A stretch of DNA of 64,000 nucleotides from Rhodotorula mucilaginosa (taxonomy: Eukaryota; Basidiomycota; Microbotryomycetes; Sporidiobolales; Sporidiobolaceae), in assembly GCA_034406715.1 (NCBI GenBank), contig CP137864.1, positions 1,302,001 to 1,366,000 of the forward strand, read 5' to 3'. Under the pieces are notes generated by a model. It was not told the DNA's origin. It did not search any database and saw nothing but the letters and a program-made list of their open reading frames with translations. The position numbers were made by a program, and so were the translations under genes. Of this stretch, positions 3,477 to 61,904 are shown piece by piece (position 1 is the first letter of the stretch; each line of letters begins with the position of its first letter).

Positions 3477-4972
3477 AGTGAGCTGCGAGAGCTGTACTGC
3501 CAAGCCATACTCCAGAGACTGACTCCGTATACCCGCCCCGCAGTGAACCACTTCCCGTCAACGTCGTGGTGCGTCACCCTCTCCTCTCCTCTCCCCGCTT
3601 CCATGACCCGACCCACACTGCTAAACCACGGTCTGTTGCAGGGGAAAGCCTCGTAACGACTCGGGAGACGCCTATGCTACCTTCCCAATCCATGCAGGCA
3701 GGACAAAGCCGCCCACAGACGCCTTCAACCAGGGCGTACAGCGAACTCAGTCAGTCCAGTTGCGCGGCCCCTCGTCCCATCTGCTGGGCTTGGACTCTGA
3801 CTCGTGCTGCTGCTGGCAGGCAACCGATCGTGACTGGAACTTCCGTCTTGGGCCTCAAGTTCAAGGACGGCGTCATGCTCGCCGCAGACTGCCTCGGTGC
3901 GTCCCTCCCACTCCCCTTCAAACCATTGACACACAACTGACGCGAGAACCTGGCGCAGCTTCGTACGGGTCTCTGGCGCGGTTCAAGGACATCCGACGAC
4001 TGTACAAGGTCAGCGAGTCGACCATGATTGGCGCGTCGGGCGACATGGCAGACTTCCAGCAGGTCAAGCACATGCTCCAGGGACTCATGTCAGTTTGGCG
4101 GCGCCTTCCCACCCACCGCCCCGCAAGACAGCTGACAAGGTCGTGATATTCGCCCCGCAGGACGGACGAGATCATCACCGAGGACGGCCACGAGTTGTCG
4201 ACGTCGCAAATCTTTGAATACCTCAGCAACGTCATGTACGCCCGGAGGAACAAGTTTGACCCGTATTGGAACGCACTCCTCGTCGCCGGCGTCGAGAACG
4301 GTGAACCGTGCGTACCACCAGCGTCCTTTGTTCAACCGAGTTTCTGGAGAGCGGATGAATTCTCCAGTCCCTGATCACTCGAGTTTCTGGTATCTGTCGT
4401 GTCGCACAGGTTCCTCGCGCACGTCGACCTCCTCGGCGTCACCTACTCGTCCCCCTCGATCGCGACCGGTTTTGGCATGCACCTCGCGCAACCTCTGCTC
4501 CGCAAAGCGCTCGACGACCTCGGCCCCGACGGAGAAAAGTCCCTCTCCGAGGACGACGCGCGCAAGATCCTCGAGAACGCGATGCGCGTCTTGTTCTACC
4601 GCGACGCCCGCAGTCTCAACAAGGTCCGTGTCCTTGGGTGTTTCGTTCCCCCGTTTTCAGCCCTCTCCCGATTTAGCGGGTTGGGGCTCGTGATCGGCGG
4701 GGAACAGTCGTCAGACTGACTCTTTTGGCTCCTTCGAAATCCAACCGCGCGCAGTTCCAAATCGCGACAGTCAAGGCGGACGGTGTCGTGATTGGCGAAC
4801 CGCAAGAGGCAGAAACGTCGTGGAGCTTTGCCGAAGGCTTGCGAGGATGTGCGTCCCCAGACTCTCCTCTCCCATCTCTTCATGACCGGAACTTGACTTG
4901 ACTCACCTTGACCCTGTTCTCGGTCTGCCTCGCCGCCCGCCTACAGACGGCAACTCGGATGAGACGTGCTAG
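3477..4972 (+). CDS. PRE4: 20S proteasome subunit beta type-7 (Pre4/PSMB4)
   Basis: Non-catalytic beta subunit of the 20S proteasome core, cytosol and nucleus. Conserved blocks in order are WGKPRND in the propeptide, [45 protein letters not shown]-like [50 protein letters not shown] and a C-terminal [10 protein letters not shown]. Nine exons give about 273 residues, normal for the family. Junctions are 3568/3642, 3749/3820 and then roughly 3895/3958, 4088/4161, 4308/4411, 4623/4755 and 4849/4947. No ATG lies in frame ahead of the propeptide. The best start is A at 3477 joined to TG at 3544-3545 across a 66-nt intron with GTGAGC donor, CTGAC branch and CGCAG acceptor. The usual Thr after AAD is Cys here (AADCL). 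Confidence 0.93.
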
Positions 4973-10362: not shown

Positions 10363-13300
10363 TCAGGCTGACCCGCGTCGTTCCTCCTGGAGGGCCGGCG
10401 ACGACTCTTGGCTGTCGTCCTCGTGCGTCTTGACTTCGAGCTTGAACCCAAGATGAGACAGGACCGCGAGCAAATCGGCCTTCATCTGGGAGTGGGGTTC
10501 AGGTTGCGTCAGTGGAGTTGCAGAACTGGGTCGAGAGGAGGCTCGACTCACGATCGGCTTGCACAGGATGCCCGCAAAGAGGGTGCCGGCTGCATCGTCA
10601 ACGGCGGCGGGCTGCGAGCAGACAGCAACGATCGGAGAGTTGGCGGAAGGATTCACGGTGCTCTTGATCATGCGAGCAGCCTTTTCTCCGTCGACGACTG
10701 CCATCGCGAGGTCTGCAGGGAGCCGGGTCAGCAAACAGCGTCTCGCCAAAAATGCTGGCCGCACGGGAAATGCGCCACTCACCCAAGAAGAGAACGTCGA
10801 ACGGAATTCCTCCCGCGGCCAAGATGGCTTCCGCACCGTTCGGCACCACGACGACCCGACAGCCGAGTCGCTTCAGCATCGTTTCGAGAACTTTGGTCAC
10901 GATCGGATTCCTGCCTGCGACGAGGCAGTCGATCGTCGCGAGGCGGTTCGCGGCAGGGACGGACGACGACATCGGAGACGGCGAAGACGACGTCGAGATG
11001 CCGAAAGGCGCATTGATCGGTGCCGGCGCGTCGGGCGCAGAGGACACCATCGGCATCGCCGGAGAGTCTGCGCCCGGGATCTGGAGCGGAGGAAGCGACT
11101 CGATCCGGGACGGCGGCGAGGACGAATCAAACGTTTCCGTCTGAGCCGATCCGCGCCGGCGGCCGCTCGCATCCTGCCATTCGCTGGGCACGCGAGGTCT
11201 TTCTCCGCCAAGGAGGCTCGTGGGAATCGAACTGCGGCGCAAGCGAGAGGGCAACGAATTGCGGCGTTGGTGACCGGAGTGGCCCATGGACAGGCTGGGC
11301 TGGCGCGTGCGCAGCCGCTCGACACTGGGCGACATTTGACTTCCCGAAAGCTGGCGCGAATGGTTGGAACCGCTGTTGCCGTTGCTAAAGGGAAGCGCCG
11401 AACCACTGGACGACGCCGACGCGGACGAAGGCGAGGTGGGACCGCCGAGATAGCGAGACGACGTCTTGAGCGGAGAGAGTGCGTCCGCACTCGGCGGAAG
11501 GAGCTGCTCGTCTTTCAGCTTGCGGATCATGTCGTCGTTCGCTTGTTTGAGAACCGTGAGATTCCGGAAGTTGAACGTGCCGAAATCGTCGAGCTGGTTC
11601 GTCGCGGGTGCAGTCTCCGACCGGTCGCGAGGAGCGCGAATCGGTTCGACCGTCTCGCTAAAGGGCGTCGGAACAGGCTCCATCTGTCGGATTGCCGGGT
11701 TGTCGGCGAGGGCCGTGTCGCCCGAAGTAGCGACTTCCTCGGCGGCTTCGGCATCTTTCTCCTTGTAGTCGTCCTCTTGACCGGTGGCACCTCGGGGATC
11801 GAAGTAATCCGTCGACTCGGGGTCGTTCACTTGAGGAACAAAGTCGACAGGTTGGAGCAGCAGATTGTCCCAGTCGACGCCGTCCAGGAACGGATGCGCC
11901 TTGACCTCCTCGGCGCCTTTCACGCCGAGTCGTCGAGCCGAGTCAGAGACGAGGAGCCGGTTGATAAAGTCGCGTGCCTCTGTCGAGATCTCGACGACGT
12001 CTTCGTGCCATTCGAGCTTGCGCGACAAGATGTTCTCAAAGACCTTCTCGGGGGTCTCGTCGTGGAAAGGCGGGATGCCGTACAGAAACCTGTCCCGGAT
12101 GATCCATCAGCTTCGTCAACTCGGAAGCGACTCCAGTGGGAAGGGAACTGCTTACTCGTAGGCGATGACGCCCAACGCCCACCAGTCGACTCCGGCGTCC
12201 ATGCCGACGCCGAGAATGCTCTCGGGGGCTAGGTAGTCGGGCGTGCCGACAAAGTGCTGCTGAGGCGTCTCTGCGGCTTCGCCGGGGGGACCGCTCACGC
12301 TAACGTTCCGAGGTGCTGACCCCGAGGTGGAGCCCGGAGTCGTCAATTTGACGGCGTGCGACGAGCCGGGCGCGCTTGAACCGCCGCTGCCTTCGCTCGG
12401 AGTGTCGAGCGAGAAGCTGTCGGTGATGGGCACGTTCCCGAAGTACCCGGTTTGAGATTGATTCACGAGTGCCGGCGTGTGCAGCGGAGACGAGGAGGTC
12501 GAAAACTCGGATCCGTTCCTCGCGAGGCCGGAAGGGCGACGCGCGTCCCGCAGACTCGGGAGCTGGGTCTGCCGGCCGAGGAGACCGATCCGACTCAGAC
12601 CAAAGTCCGTCAGCTTGAGGTGACCTTTCGAGTCGATCAGGAGGTTGTCGGGCTTGAGATCGCGATGGATGATGCCGGCTCCGTGGAGGTGGTTCAGCCC
12701 GACAATCACCTCGGCGATGTACCGCTTCGCCCAGTCTTCCGGGAGGCCGCCGAGGTTCTTGACGAGCGCGGCGCAGTCGCCGCCGGGAAGATATTCCATG
12801 ACGAGGTAGAGGTAGTCCTTGGACTGGAACGTGTAAAAGAGCTTGACGACGAATTCGGAGTCGGTCTGCGTCATGAGGATCATGCGCTCGGCTTTGACGT
12901 TCGTGACCTGGTTCTTGGCGACCATGTCCGACTTCTTGAGGACCTTGATGGCATAGTAGTCGCCGGTCGTGATCTTCTTCGCGAGGTACACGGAGCCGAA
13001 CGCGCCCTTCGAGATCGGCTTGATGACCTTGAAGTCCTTGATCGACGATGCGCGGGTCCGCGACGAGGGTACGACCGCCGGAATCCGCGGCGACATCGGC
13101 ACGAGCCCTGACGGGCTCGACGAAGCGAGGGAAGCTTCGTCTGGTCCGAGCGTCGGCGAGAGGTGGCTGAGCGGTTGGGACAAGCGACGCTTCATCTCGG
13201 CTCCTGGCCGTTGCAGGTCGAGAGCGTCGATTTGTCTCGGGGAATCCTGCGAGGGAACTGGCTGCAGCTGCGGCGAGTCGAACGGAAGCGGAGAGGGACC

Positions 13301-56651: not shown

Positions 56652-57543
56652 CTTGTGTCGCAGAGAGGAGAGGAGAGCGGTTCGAGGGTTTGGGCTTGGG
56701 AGAGACCGAGTCGATGAGTGAGTGCGAGTGAGGAGCAAGAGCAAGAGCAGTCCATATCGCGGGCCTTTTTTTGAAGGCCAAGGGGTCGGCGTGTCGCTGT
56801 CACATCCGCATCGTCGGTCGTCGGCCGAAGTGAAACTTGGCAAGACGGACGAGGTGCGAGCGCAAACCGTCGAATGCGATGCGGATGTGACACGAGGTCT
56901 GTGCGTTGTGGCTCCTTCCGCGCGGAGTACTGTAGCTGTGGGCCAGAGAGACGCAGCAGTCGTTCGCCCATAGAGGTGGTTCTCTCCGTGAAGGGAGCGC
57001 GTGGGTGGCGGCGTCGGAGAAAGAGGGAGAGAAAAAATTCGTTTCCTCGCCCCTCTCGCGCATGTCGCTGGCCAGTCCTCTTAGCCTGTGAAGCATCTTG
57101 GCTATCCATGTTCTTAAGAACCGGTTCCATGACGGTAAGGCCGCGTTTGACATCGGCATCCGACAAGCGGGCGAGACGGGAGTCGACCGGAGAGGGACGG
57201 AGAAGAGCGGGATGCGCAGCCGAGCGAGGCTAGAGATAGTCTTGCAGCATCGCAGGAGGCTTATCCTGAAGGGAATGAGCGGTACGCGTGAGAGGTGAGC
57301 GCATGTGAGCGGGCGAGATCCGCGCTCGAAATTCCGTGCGCGGTAATGGGGAAGGGAATACAACTTGAGTAATGAAACGGATTGTAATGCGGGTTGAGTC
57401 AATCGCGCGGCGCAGCGACGGGCGAGGCGAGCGTCGAGCGGCGGCTTTTCCTCTTCTCTGCGTCGCTACACTCTCGCTGGACAAGACTCGTGACAAAGTC
57501 TTATCTTTCTCCTGTAGCCACTTGCTCACCCAAGCAAAAGTTC
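56652..57543. promoter_or_regulatory. Divergent upstream region before the CPA2 leader
   Basis: This 892-bp stretch lies between the start of the minus-strand 193-residue gene and the CPA2 leader uORF, so it holds both promoters. A minus-strand frame at 56800-57400 has no homology visible to me. A CT-rich stretch appears after 57450, where the CPA2 transcript may begin. Confidence 0.45.
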
Positions 57544-57994
57544 ATGTACGCTCCCCTCTCGCTCTCGTGCTGCACCGCGCCAGTCCGCGGGCACCGCACT
57601 GACCTTCTCCCTCGCTCTCTCGCATCTCGGCGTCGCCCGTCGTGCAGGCTCTGGTTCGCCGGCTGCCAGACTCGTCAGGTGTGTACCCGCTCACTCTCTA
57701 CCCGGCGCACACCCAAACTCTGCCACGCCCCGCTTCCCTGAACATGCGCGGCTGACCTCGCATTTTTTTTCTTCTTCTTTCCTGTGACCGCGCAGGACTA
57801 GTACGTCGACCCTCCCTTACCGCCATACACTGCCTGCCGAGCCTGCCTTTAGTGCACCATCGAACGCTATACCACGTGGCCGAACCAGCGCGCTGACCGC
57901 TTTGCCCCGCCCCCCTCGTTGCCCGTCTTCCCGCTTCTTATCTCTCTCGCCGCACAGTCTCGATACTATCGTCTACAAGGCTCTCGGCCAGTGA
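57544..57994 (+). CDS. uORF for a 24-residue arginine attenuator-like leader peptide, spliced, ahead of CPA2
   Basis: A 24-codon upstream ORF ending 84 nt before the CPA2 start codon. It splices from four exons: AT at 57544-57545, 57648-57678, the 5-nt 57796-57800, and 57958-57994 with stop TGA. Each of the three introns (102, 117 and 157 nt) has a GTACG/GTGTG donor, a CTGAC branch site and a CAG acceptor. The peptide lines up without gaps with the arginine attenuator peptide (AAP) of Neurospora arg-2, also 24 residues. Thr9, Gln11, Asp12, Tyr13, Leu14, Ala21 and Leu22 are identical, position 20 is Lys for Arg and position 19 Tyr for Trp. In known AAPs, Asp12 is needed for arginine-dependent ribosome stalling. 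If the match is real, arginine stalls ribosomes at this stop and lowers CPA2 translation. The classical AAP sits on the CPS small-subunit gene. Confidence 0.72.
57796..57800 (+). other. Five-nucleotide micro-exon of the CPA2 leader uORF
   Basis: GACTA between a CGCAG acceptor and a GTACGT donor. It completes Asp12 and two bases of Tyr13 of the leader peptide. Without it the QDYL motif and the frame to the TGA are lost. Confidence 0.65.
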
Positions 57995-58078: not shown

Positions 58079-61000
58079 ATGCTCCGCACCTTTTCCTCGC
58101 GCCTCCGCTCGGCGCCCGCCACCCGCTCCGCCCGGGCCTTCACCACGACCCCTCGCCGCAACTTTGTCATCGACTTGACTCGCCGCGCCGAAGTCAAGGA
58201 ACCGCTCGCACCGACCCAGAACGAGGACCTCGTCGACATCTCGTCCCAGTTCAAGCACATCCAGACCAAGGACGGCACCTCGGCCGCTTCCGACCTCGCC
58301 CGCCGCCTGTCCCAGGCAGTCCTGCCTAAGCTGGAGCGCCCCGATGTCAAGAAAGTCATGATCGTCGGATCCGGCGGTCTCTCGATCGGCCAGGCCGGCG
58401 AGTTCGACTACTCGGGTAAGTCGTCACTTTGCGATCCCCATCCCGTCCCGCCCCGACTAAGACTCTTTACCGATCGCAGGTGCCCAAGCCATCAAGGCCA
58501 TGAAGGAGTCGAACATCGAGACCATCCTGCTCAACCCCAACATCGCGACCATCCAGACTTCTCACCAGATGGCCTCCGAGGTCTACTGTGAGCAGTTTCC
58601 CCGGTTGCCGGAGACCCATAGCAGGCCACTGACAGAACGCGACCCACACAGTCCTCCCCGTCACCGCCGAATACGTCGCCTACGTTCTCGAGAAGGAGCG
58701 CCCGGACGGCATCCTCCTCACGTTCGGTGGCCAGTCCGCCCTCAACGTCGGTATCCAACTCGAGAAGATGGGTGTCTTTGAGCGCCTCGGCGTCAAGGTC
58801 CTCGGTACCCAGATCCGCACTCTCGAAGTCTCGGAGGACCGCGACCTGTTCGTCAAGGCCCTCGACGAGATCGGTATCCCCGCCGCCACTTCGACCGCCG
58901 TCTCGACCGTCAAGGACGCCCTCGAGGCTGCCGAGCAGATCGGCTACCCCGTCATTCTCCGTTCCGCCTTCTCGCTCGGTGGCCTCGGTTCCGGCTTCGC
59001 CGAGAACGAGGAGGAGCTGCGTGACTTGTCGGCCAAGTCGCTCTCGCTCTCGCCCCAGGTCCTGATCGAGAAGTCGCTCAAGGGCTGGAAGGAGCTCGAG
59101 TACGAGGTCGTCCGTGACGCCGCCGACAACGTCATCATCTGCTGCAACATGGAGGTGAGCCTGACCACTTCGATTGCCGCGGATCCAGGAACACGGCGCT
59201 CACCCAGCTTCGTCCGCAGAACTTTGACCCGCTCGGAATCCACACTGGAGACTCGATCGTCATCGCGCCCTCGCAGACCCTGTCTGACGACGAGTACCAC
59301 ATGCTCCGTTCGGCCGCCATCAAGATCGTCCGTCACGTCGGCGTCGTCGGAGAGTGCAACGTCCAGTACGCGCTCAACCCGAACAAGCGCGAGTACATGG
59401 TCATCGAGATGAACGCCCGTCTCTCGCGTTCGTCTGCGCTCGCGTCCAAGGCGACCGGCTACCCGCTCGCCTACACGGCCGCCAAGATCGCGCTCGGCCA
59501 CACCCTCCCCGAGTTGCCGAACGCCGTCACCAAGACGACCACCGCTTGCTTCGAGCCGGCGCTCGACTACCTCGTCACCAAGATCCCCAAGTGGGACTTG
59601 GCCAAGTTCCAGCACGTCCAACGCGACATCGGCTCGTCGATGAAGTCGGTCGGAGAGGTCATGGCCATCGGTCGCACCTTTGAGGAGTCGCTCCAGAAGG
59701 CTATCCGCCAGGTCGACCCGCGCTGGACCGGTTTCGAGGCCTACTGGCAGCCGGAGGACCTCCACAATGCGCTCACGGTGCCGACCGACCGTCGTCTGTT
59801 TGCGATCGCGCACGCGATGCTCAACCTCGACTACACCGTCGACATGATCCACGACCTGACCAAGATCGACAAGTGGTTCCTGCACAAGCTCGACAACATT
59901 GTCGAGGTCCACCGTCAGTTCCGCAAGACCCAGTCGGTCTCGCAGGTCGACGAGGACCTCATGCGCCGCGCCAAGCGCATGGGTTTCGCCGACAAGCAGA
60001 TCGCCGACCTGATCGAGCGCGACGGCGGCGACAAGACTTCCGAGTATGACGTCCGCGCGCAGCGCAAGTCGCTCGGCGTCACGCCGTTCGTCAAGCGTAT
60101 CGACACCCTCGCGGCCGAGTACCCGGCGCACACCAACTACCTCTACACGACCTACAACGCCTCGACCCACGACATCGAGTTCAACGACAAGGGCACGATG
60201 GTGCTCGGCTCGGGCGTCTACCGTATCGGTTCCTCGGTCGAGTTCGATTGGTGCGCCGTCTCGTGCGTCCGCAAGATCCGCGAGATGGGCCACAAGACGG
60301 TCATGATCAACTACAACCCGGAGACTGTCTCGACCGACTTTGACGAGGCCGACCGCCTCTACTTTGAGGAGCTCGGCTGGGAACGTGTCATGGACATCTA
60401 CGAGCTCGAGGGCTCGGAGGGTGTCGTCGTCTCGGTCGGCGGTCAGCTGCCGCAGAACATTGCCCTCCGCCTCAAGGAGACCGGCGTCAATGTCCTCGGT
60501 ACCGACCCGCAGATGATCGACAGCGCCGAGGACCGTCACAAGTTCTCTGCCATCCTCGACAAGTCGGGCGTCGACCAGCCGGACTGGATCGAGGCTTCGT
60601 CGGTCGAGTCGGCCAAGGAGTTTGCCAACCGCGTCGGTTACCCCGTCCTCGTTCGCCCGTCCTACGTCCTCTCCGGTGCCGCCATGAACGTCGTCTGGGA
60701 CGAGTCGACCCTCGAGCACTCGCTCACTGCCGCCGCCGAGGTCTCGTCCGAGCACCCGACCGTCATCACCAAGTTCATCGACGGTGCGCAGGAGATCGAC
60801 ATTGACGCCGTCGCCTACAAGGGCGAGCTCCTCGTCCACGCCGTCTCTGAGCACGTCGAGAACGCCGGTGTCCACTCGGGTGACGCGACCCTCGTCCTGC
60901 CGCCGTTCTCGCTGGCCGAGAACGACTTGGACCGCCTCAAGGTCATTGCGCAAAAGGTCGCCAAGGCGTTCGACATCTCGGGTCCGTTCAACATGCAGAT

Positions 61001-61904
61001 CATCCGCAAGGCTCAGCCGGACGGCGAGACCGTCCTCAAGGTCATCGAGTGCAACCTCCGTGCCTCGCGTTCGTTCCCCTTCGTGTCCAAGGTCCTCGGC
61101 GTCAACTTTATCGACGTCGCCGCCGCCGCGCTCGTCGGCGAGAACGTCCCTGCCCCCGTCGACCTCATGAAGGAGAAGCGCGACTACGTCGCGATCAAGA
61201 CTTCTCAGTTCAGTTGGACTCGTCTTGCCGGTGCTGACCCGTGAGTTGCTTTTCCTTTCTCGCCCACCTTTCTCCATTTGCTCGTGACTTGCCACCCCCT
61301 CTACATTACTGACGTATCTACTCCTGCGTTTAGGACTCTTGGTGTCGAGATGGCGTCGACGGGCGAGGTCGCGGCCTTTGGATCCGACATCGCCGAGGCC
61401 TACTGGGCTTCCCTCACCTCGACCAACGGTTTCCGCGTTCCCGTCGCCGGCTCCGGTGTCCTTCTCGGTGGAGACATCAACTGCCCGCAGCTCGCAACTG
61501 TTGCCAAGGGCCTGTCGGACCTCGGCTTCAAGCTGTACTGCTCGTCGCCGGTCGTCGAGGAATTCCTCAACTCGCTTCCTTACGTCAAGGCGGAAAAGAT
61601 TTTCTTCCCGCTGAAGGATAAGCGTAAGCTTCGCGAGGTATTCGATGAGTACGACATCCAGAGCGTGATCAACTTGGCGAAGGGCCGCGCGAAGGACACG
61701 CTCGACGAGGACTACGTCGCTCGCCGGAACGCCGTCGACTTTGGTGTCCCCCTCATCAACAACCCGCTCCTGGCAGACCTGTACGTGCAGGCTCTCGGTC
61801 GCAAGATGAAGCTCGGCGAGGTCGGCTCAGTGTCGAACTACGTCGAGGGTCGCGTCCCGTCCGAGGTCAAGGCGTGGTCCGAGTGGATCGGCTCGCACGC
61901 CTGA
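58079..61904 (+). CDS. CPA2: Carbamoyl-phosphate synthase, arginine-specific large subunit, mitochondrial
   Basis: Makes carbamoyl phosphate from glutamine-derived ammonia, bicarbonate and 2 ATP for arginine synthesis. Five exons give about 1,180 residues. The N-terminus ([26 protein letters not shown]) is an Arg/Ser-rich mitochondrial presequence. Two ATP-grasp halves follow: [95 protein letters not shown]; then [64 protein letters not shown]-terminal MGS-like domain ([14 protein letters not shown]) completes it. No fused glutaminase or aspartate transcarbamoylase, so it is not the URA2 enzyme. Introns at about 58414-58480, 58587-58650, 59155-59219 and 61241-61334. The leader uORF at 57544-57994 probably controls it. 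Confidence 0.95.

Follow-up and report, generated by a model that had tools for sequence, protein, structure and literature searches.

In the accessible text of published work, arginine attenuator peptides (AAPs) are described from the small-subunit gene of arginine-specific carbamoyl-phosphate synthase (PMC7969011, PMC11550727, PMC7049704, PMC8370653). In Neurospora and yeast, high arginine makes the growing AAP arrest the ribosome at the stop codon of its upstream open reading frame (uORF) and less small subunit is made, while the D13N substitution in the yeast peptide abolishes the arginine response (PMC7969011, in the text accessible). Nonsense-mediated decay (NMD) participates in AAP control (PMC11550727, likewise), and the Cryptococcus CPA1 homologue carries a conserved AAP uORF with a strong NMD response (PMC7049704, likewise). 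Within the accessible text of the literature found on the question, an AAP is not reported on CPA2, the large-subunit gene, and a search for Rhodotorula uORFs found nothing relevant.

The window considered here is a 64,000-nt stretch of contig CP137864.1 of the basidiomycete yeast Rhodotorula mucilaginosa, whose genome comprises 20.35 Mb in 19 contigs. It includes CPA2, the gene of the arginine-specific large subunit. The CPA2 protein is 97% identical to a protein of Rhodotorula pacifica, which is placed in the Microbotryomycetes, and 96% identical over 85% to a protein of R. taiwanensis (among the best 120 of 7998 matches scored). It scores 986 bits against TIGR01369 (curated cut-off 1027), and NF003671 passes its cut-off on a single CPA2 exon only. 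Among the matches listed, some CPA2 relatives bear the database names 'spermidine synthase' and 'putative Dihydroorotase', apparently by misannotation. A second CPA2 gene was considered and rejected: PF02787 is found only in the window gene and in a gene at C1:1976k, and the latter also has PF00988 and PF02729. A search for relatives with DNA gave none among viral contigs and 64 loci among genome contigs, which are bacterial or archaeal by title and include no fungal leader.

Upstream of CPA2, positions 57544-57994 encode, after predicted splicing, the peptide MLWFAGCQTRQDYLDTIVYKALGQ followed by a stop, a uORF of 24 codons assembled from four exons (Table 1). All three uORF introns run from GT to AG and have CTGAC inside. 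The uORF stop lies 84 nt ahead of the CPA2 AUG with no AUG in between, and going upstream from the uORF the first AUG is met at -157. AAP uORFs have a weak start context that permits leaky scanning. That of the CPA2 uORF is weak as judged by its T at -3, and the main AUG has A there; the uORF and main AUGs of CPA1 have the same T and A.

Table 1. Features of the CPA2 leader and gene (positions in the window; uORF exons and introns as predicted).
Feature	Position	Strand	Remarks
Promoter and 5' UTR above the uORF, apparently related to those of CPA1	57314..57543	+	In 4 of 5 settings CPA1 gives the best match among 22,500 windows
GTAATG, three copies	57343, 57369, 57384 (57343..57389)	+	CPA1: two copies upstream of uORF, same orientation
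TGAGTCA	57395..57401	+	CPA1: only a partial match, TTGACTCGG
13-mer CGCTACACTCTCG	57464..57476	+	Identical in CPA1; about -80 (CPA2) and -76 (CPA1) from uORF AUG
Coding part of uORF exon 1 (AT; intron 1 interrupts the AUG)	57544..57545	+	T at -3
uORF intron 1	57546..57647	+	102 nt; donor GTACGC; without in-frame stop
uORF exon 2, codon 1 (G) to Q11	57648..57678	+	
uORF intron 2	57679..57795	+	117 nt; donor GTGTGT with poor support; position CAG/G; missing from CPA1 copy
Microexon GACTA, coding for D12 and part (two bases) of Y13	57796..57800	+	5 nt
uORF intron 3	57801..57957	+	157 nt; donor GTACGT; 3' end related to that of CPA1 uORF intron 2
Last uORF exon (rest of Y13 through Q24, then TGA stop)	57958..57994	+	
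CPA2, arginine-specific carbamoyl-phosphate synthase large subunit	58079..61904	+	1179 aa
CPA2 introns	58416-58479, 58588-58651, 59155-59219, 61241-61333	+	

The letters of the Neurospora AAP were confirmed from PDB 2xl1_A. The CPA2 peptide is identical to it at 8 of 24 positions (M1, T9, Q11, D12, Y13, L14, A21 and L22), has K at residue 20 where Neurospora has R, and stops at the same position. The AAP core T-x-Q-D-Y-[LI], with its essential Asp, is found as TRQDYL, in which D12 is the equivalent of yeast D13, and 24 codons lie within the 24-25 of known AAPs. Where AAPs have the C-terminus S-D-H-[LI]-W-[RK]-A-L, the CPA2 peptide reads DTIVYKAL; K20, A21 and L22 are kept, Y takes the place of W, and SDHL is not kept, so that Neurospora SDHLW (residues 15-19) is not conserved. 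The yeast CPA1 leader peptide, of 25 residues, aligns to the CPA2 peptide with an offset of one. Thus, the first-pass annotation, which had reported a 24-codon leader ORF matching the Neurospora and yeast peptides position by position, is confirmed as to the ORF and, for Neurospora, as to the length, the residues it listed and the stop, while the yeast peptide matches with that offset.

The same annotation had called the match unlikely by chance, and a scan of 258,007 bases of this genome on both strands bears this out. All 24-codon ORFs with at most three introns, each 45-160 nt long with a YAG acceptor and a CTRAY branch, were scored by BLOSUM62 against the Neurospora AAP. The CPA2 leader comes top with 26 and the runner-up reaches 7 under both donor rules, with 113 starts above -50 for GT..G donors and 227 for any GT. 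Whichever donor rule is used, neither the full nor the core score of the CPA2 leader is attained in any of its 1000 dinucleotide shuffles (the shuffle test omits the start Met, and the CPA2 score in it is 21 instead of 26). The 691-nt leader holds only two spliced TxxDYL ORFs when a branch is not required, and these differ at the N-terminus alone.

The small-subunit gene of the same genome, CPA1, lies on the minus strand of contig C9 (L001) and has an AAP-like spliced uORF of its own. A scan for the peptide core with free ends and no target location given, over the same 258 kb and both strands, lists seven starts scoring at least 14, namely CPA2 (26), CPA1 (18) and five others (16, 15, 15, 14 and 14). 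With GT..[GA] donors no shuffle out of 1000 reaches the CPA1 core score, and with any GT one out of 1000 does. The spliced CPA1 peptide is MKVTYRGQETRFDYLEYSALSYYLAGY, with its stop 28 nt ahead of the CPA1 AUG, and the leader holds three spliced TxxDYL ORFs (branch not required) that differ at the N-terminus alone. In the best splicing of both uORFs the start codon is split as AT/G; for CPA1 this split relies on a GTCCGT donor (rank 41 of 218 hexamers) and has two alternatives, which leaves its first intron ambiguous. An intron at the DY/L boundary is found in both uORFs, one base apart. The CPA2 and CPA1 peptides are identical at 6 of 12 positions (YRGQETRFDYLE and FAGCQTRQDYLD), and the CPA1 copy appears more diverged from the Neurospora AAP than the CPA2 copy. 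The first-pass annotation had suggested that the sensor may have moved to, or been gained on, the partner gene. Since CPA1 retains its own diverged copy, second in the blind core scan, relocation from CPA1 to CPA2 is rejected and gain is supported. The regions round ARG3, ARG1, three amino-acid-kinase genes, the pyrimidine carbamoyl-phosphate synthase gene, ARG4 and ARG7, scanned as whole fetched stretches and with each of the three kinase genes kept as a candidate for arginine synthesis, give core scores of at most 15, and DYL is absent from their listed core-scan matches. An AAP on every arginine gene is therefore unsupported.

The resemblance of the two genes extends beyond the peptide. When the 60 nt round the last acceptor of the CPA2 uORF were compared with the equal stretch at 11,310 YAG sites, the last acceptor of the CPA1 uORF was the best non-self match in all four settings (42 versus 32.5 for the next site in the first setting, mean 14.2, standard deviation 3.5; a self-overlapping site 35 nt away was set aside). 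In the reverse test only one site, by inference that of CPA2, reaches this score against the CPA1 acceptor, and the match is reciprocally best. The 230 nt above the two uORFs are also reciprocally best among the matches listed, by a small margin (66 versus 63 in one setting), and 605 of 22,500 windows match this stretch as well when gaps are kept tight. The next matches to it after CPA1, on the minus strand of L025 near 4687 and on the plus strand of L102 near 1749, are probably other promoters and may reflect a shared core-promoter layout in this yeast. By segment, relatedness is clearest from -230 to the uORF AUG (z 7.1, 7.1 and 3.3) and in the DY/L intron (4, 0 and 10 of 500 shuffles equally good) and is weak in the uORF exons (18, 28 and 21 of 500), while the far promoter, intron 1 and the start of the coding region show none. 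An earlier alignment in six settings beat all shuffles in two, was reached by 5 and 8 of 500 shuffles in two local ones and gave nothing in two global ones. The upstream and segment results thus vary with the alignment settings, whereas the acceptor result holds in all four. Together, these comparisons suggest a common ancestry of the CPA1 and CPA2 5' regions that extends across promoter, 5' UTR and the 3' portion of the uORF. Part of the upstream match could be due to a promoter architecture shared among genes of this yeast, which would leave the acceptor match unexplained.

Short motifs accompany this resemblance. GTAATG, which in CPA1 occurs at 3651 and 3834 of L004 on the minus strand, is a possible candidate for a binding site specific to the two synthase genes. 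The repeated motif was not seen in the ARG1, ARG3, ARG4 and ARG7 regions fetched, and three copies within 47 nt occur at CPA2 only in a 264-kb pool. Two copies no more than 250 nt apart are found at three further places in that pool, and a pair is accordingly not peculiar to CPA1 and CPA2. The TGAGTCA upstream of the CPA2 uORF is presumably a Gcn4/Cpc1-type site. The local score of the shared 13-mer is reached by 24 of 2000 shuffles, and its 12-mer is found 8 times in the genome.

The acceptor and upstream matches, taken together, are read as a copied promoter-leader-uORF cassette. Thus, the CPA2 mRNA probably carries a spliced AAP-type uORF derived from a duplicated cassette shared with CPA1, which would place an arginine brake on both genes. 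The presence of an AAP on Cryptococcus CPA1 (PMC7049704, in the text accessible) implies that the CPA1 peptide is old in basidiomycetes and makes copying from CPA1 to CPA2 the likelier direction. The AAP-like uORFs and similar promoters may instead have arisen independently on the two genes by convergence under shared regulation. There is precedent in the uORF of a Toxoplasma arginine transporter, deemed convergent by its authors (PMC8370653, in the text accessible), and tight-gap alignments of the two promoters are unremarkable. Convergence on peptide function, however, predicts neither the similarity of the intron 3' ends, seen in all settings, nor the common AT/G intron position, and is considered unlikely.

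If the duplicated uORF works as an AAP, plentiful arginine would cause the nascent peptide, with its TRQDYL core, D12 and YKAL end, to arrest the ribosome at the uORF stop. The arrested ribosome would block scanning to the CPA2 AUG downstream and would expose the CPA2 mRNA to NMD. When arginine is scarce, leaky scanning would pass the weak uORF AUG and CPA2 would be made. One translational brake would in this way act on both subunits of the arginine-specific enzyme. D12, the KAL end, the length, and T and A at -3 of the uORF and main AUGs fit such a mechanism by analogy. Alternatively, a peptide of conserved type is encoded and arginine sensing is lost, which would leave a uORF that represses constitutively or triggers NMD. 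The replacement of SDHLW by DTIVY and the modest identity to Neurospora (8 of 24 residues) are in keeping with such a loss, but it is improbable: a constitutive uORF would have no need of the D12-bearing core, the K-A-L end or a length of exactly 24 codons, all of which the peptide keeps.

Splicing in vivo is predicted here from donor, branch and acceptor signals. Donors were judged by a crude test, namely how often the hexamer precedes branch and acceptor signals in this genome; it searches for these within 85 nt and is therefore blind to introns as long as those of the uORF. Among 218 hexamers GTACGT ranks 3rd, GTACGC 24th and GTGTGT 142nd. Retained intron 1 still reads in frame, to TRQDYLDTIVYKALGQ and a stop, and intron 1 is thus dispensable for the peptide core; its length is a multiple of three, and the unspliced mRNA would give a 58-aa uORF that still ends with the AAP core. 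By contrast, retention of intron 2 or 3, or skipping of the microexon, destroys the peptide, and skipping gives an unrelated 48-aa uORF. Intron 2 is likely a gain in the CPA2 copy, since it is absent from the CPA1 copy. CAG/G is a typical site of intron gain, and a gain there would account for the 5-nt exon. Of the three independent introns with clear branch sites proposed in the first-pass annotation, the branch signals are thus present throughout, and independence is weakened by the dispensable intron 1 and the poor donor of intron 2. That the spliced ORF is a mere product of splice-site choice, in a leader that is spliced elsewhere or not at all and yields no AAP, is very improbable: it does need three introns, a 5-nt exon and one poor donor, picked to fit, yet the same optimisation over the scanned sequence and 1000 shuffles never comes close, the blind core scan puts CPA1 next, and the sequence round its last acceptor has a relative at the last acceptor of the CPA1 uORF.

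The apparent relatedness of the CPA1 and CPA2 5' regions is new here. A fuller reading, quite possible and put forward tentatively, is that a whole cassette of promoter, 5' UTR and arginine-sensing uORF was copied between the non-homologous genes of partner subunits, so that one sensor sets both; the CPA2 copy would now be nearer to the Neurospora peptide than the CPA1 copy, and the gained intron would have added a 5-nt microexon whose skipping would turn the sensor off. If true, the second copy would show a nascent-chain metabolite sensor spreading by the copying of a non-coding cassette and not by slow convergence, the translation of both subunits would answer to arginine, and the CPA1 and CPA2 uORFs would offer two diverged sensors within one cell, a pair made by nature and open to testing.

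One of the systems nearest to the CPA2 uORF is the CPA1 uORF of the same genome. Both have TRxDYL[ED], an intron-split start codon, a DY/L-adjoining intron with a related 3' end, a weak AUG context and 230 nt of related upstream sequence; the CPA1 uORF differs in its 27 residues, in F for Q, in two extra residues after DYL and in having one intron fewer. The yeast CPA1 leader peptide shares the T-x-Q-D-Y core and has K in the place of R20, and differs in its small-subunit gene, its 25 residues and its other C-terminus. The Neurospora crassa arg-2 AAP (PDB 2xl1) is alike in its 24 codons, T9, Q11, D12, Y13, L14, basic residue 20, A21, L22 and stop, and its uORF also lies shortly before the gene of an arginine-specific carbamoyl-phosphate synthase subunit. 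In arg-2 this is the small subunit, whereas the CPA2 uORF precedes the large one, does not keep SDHLW, and has its coding part cut by three introns with a 5-nt exon. The Toxoplasma ApiAT1 uORF, as described in the accessible text of PMC8370653, is similarly AAP-like, with a critical Asp and on a gene other than CPA1. That gene encodes an apicomplexan arginine transporter and its uORF is held to be convergent, whereas the CPA2 copy looks duplicated.
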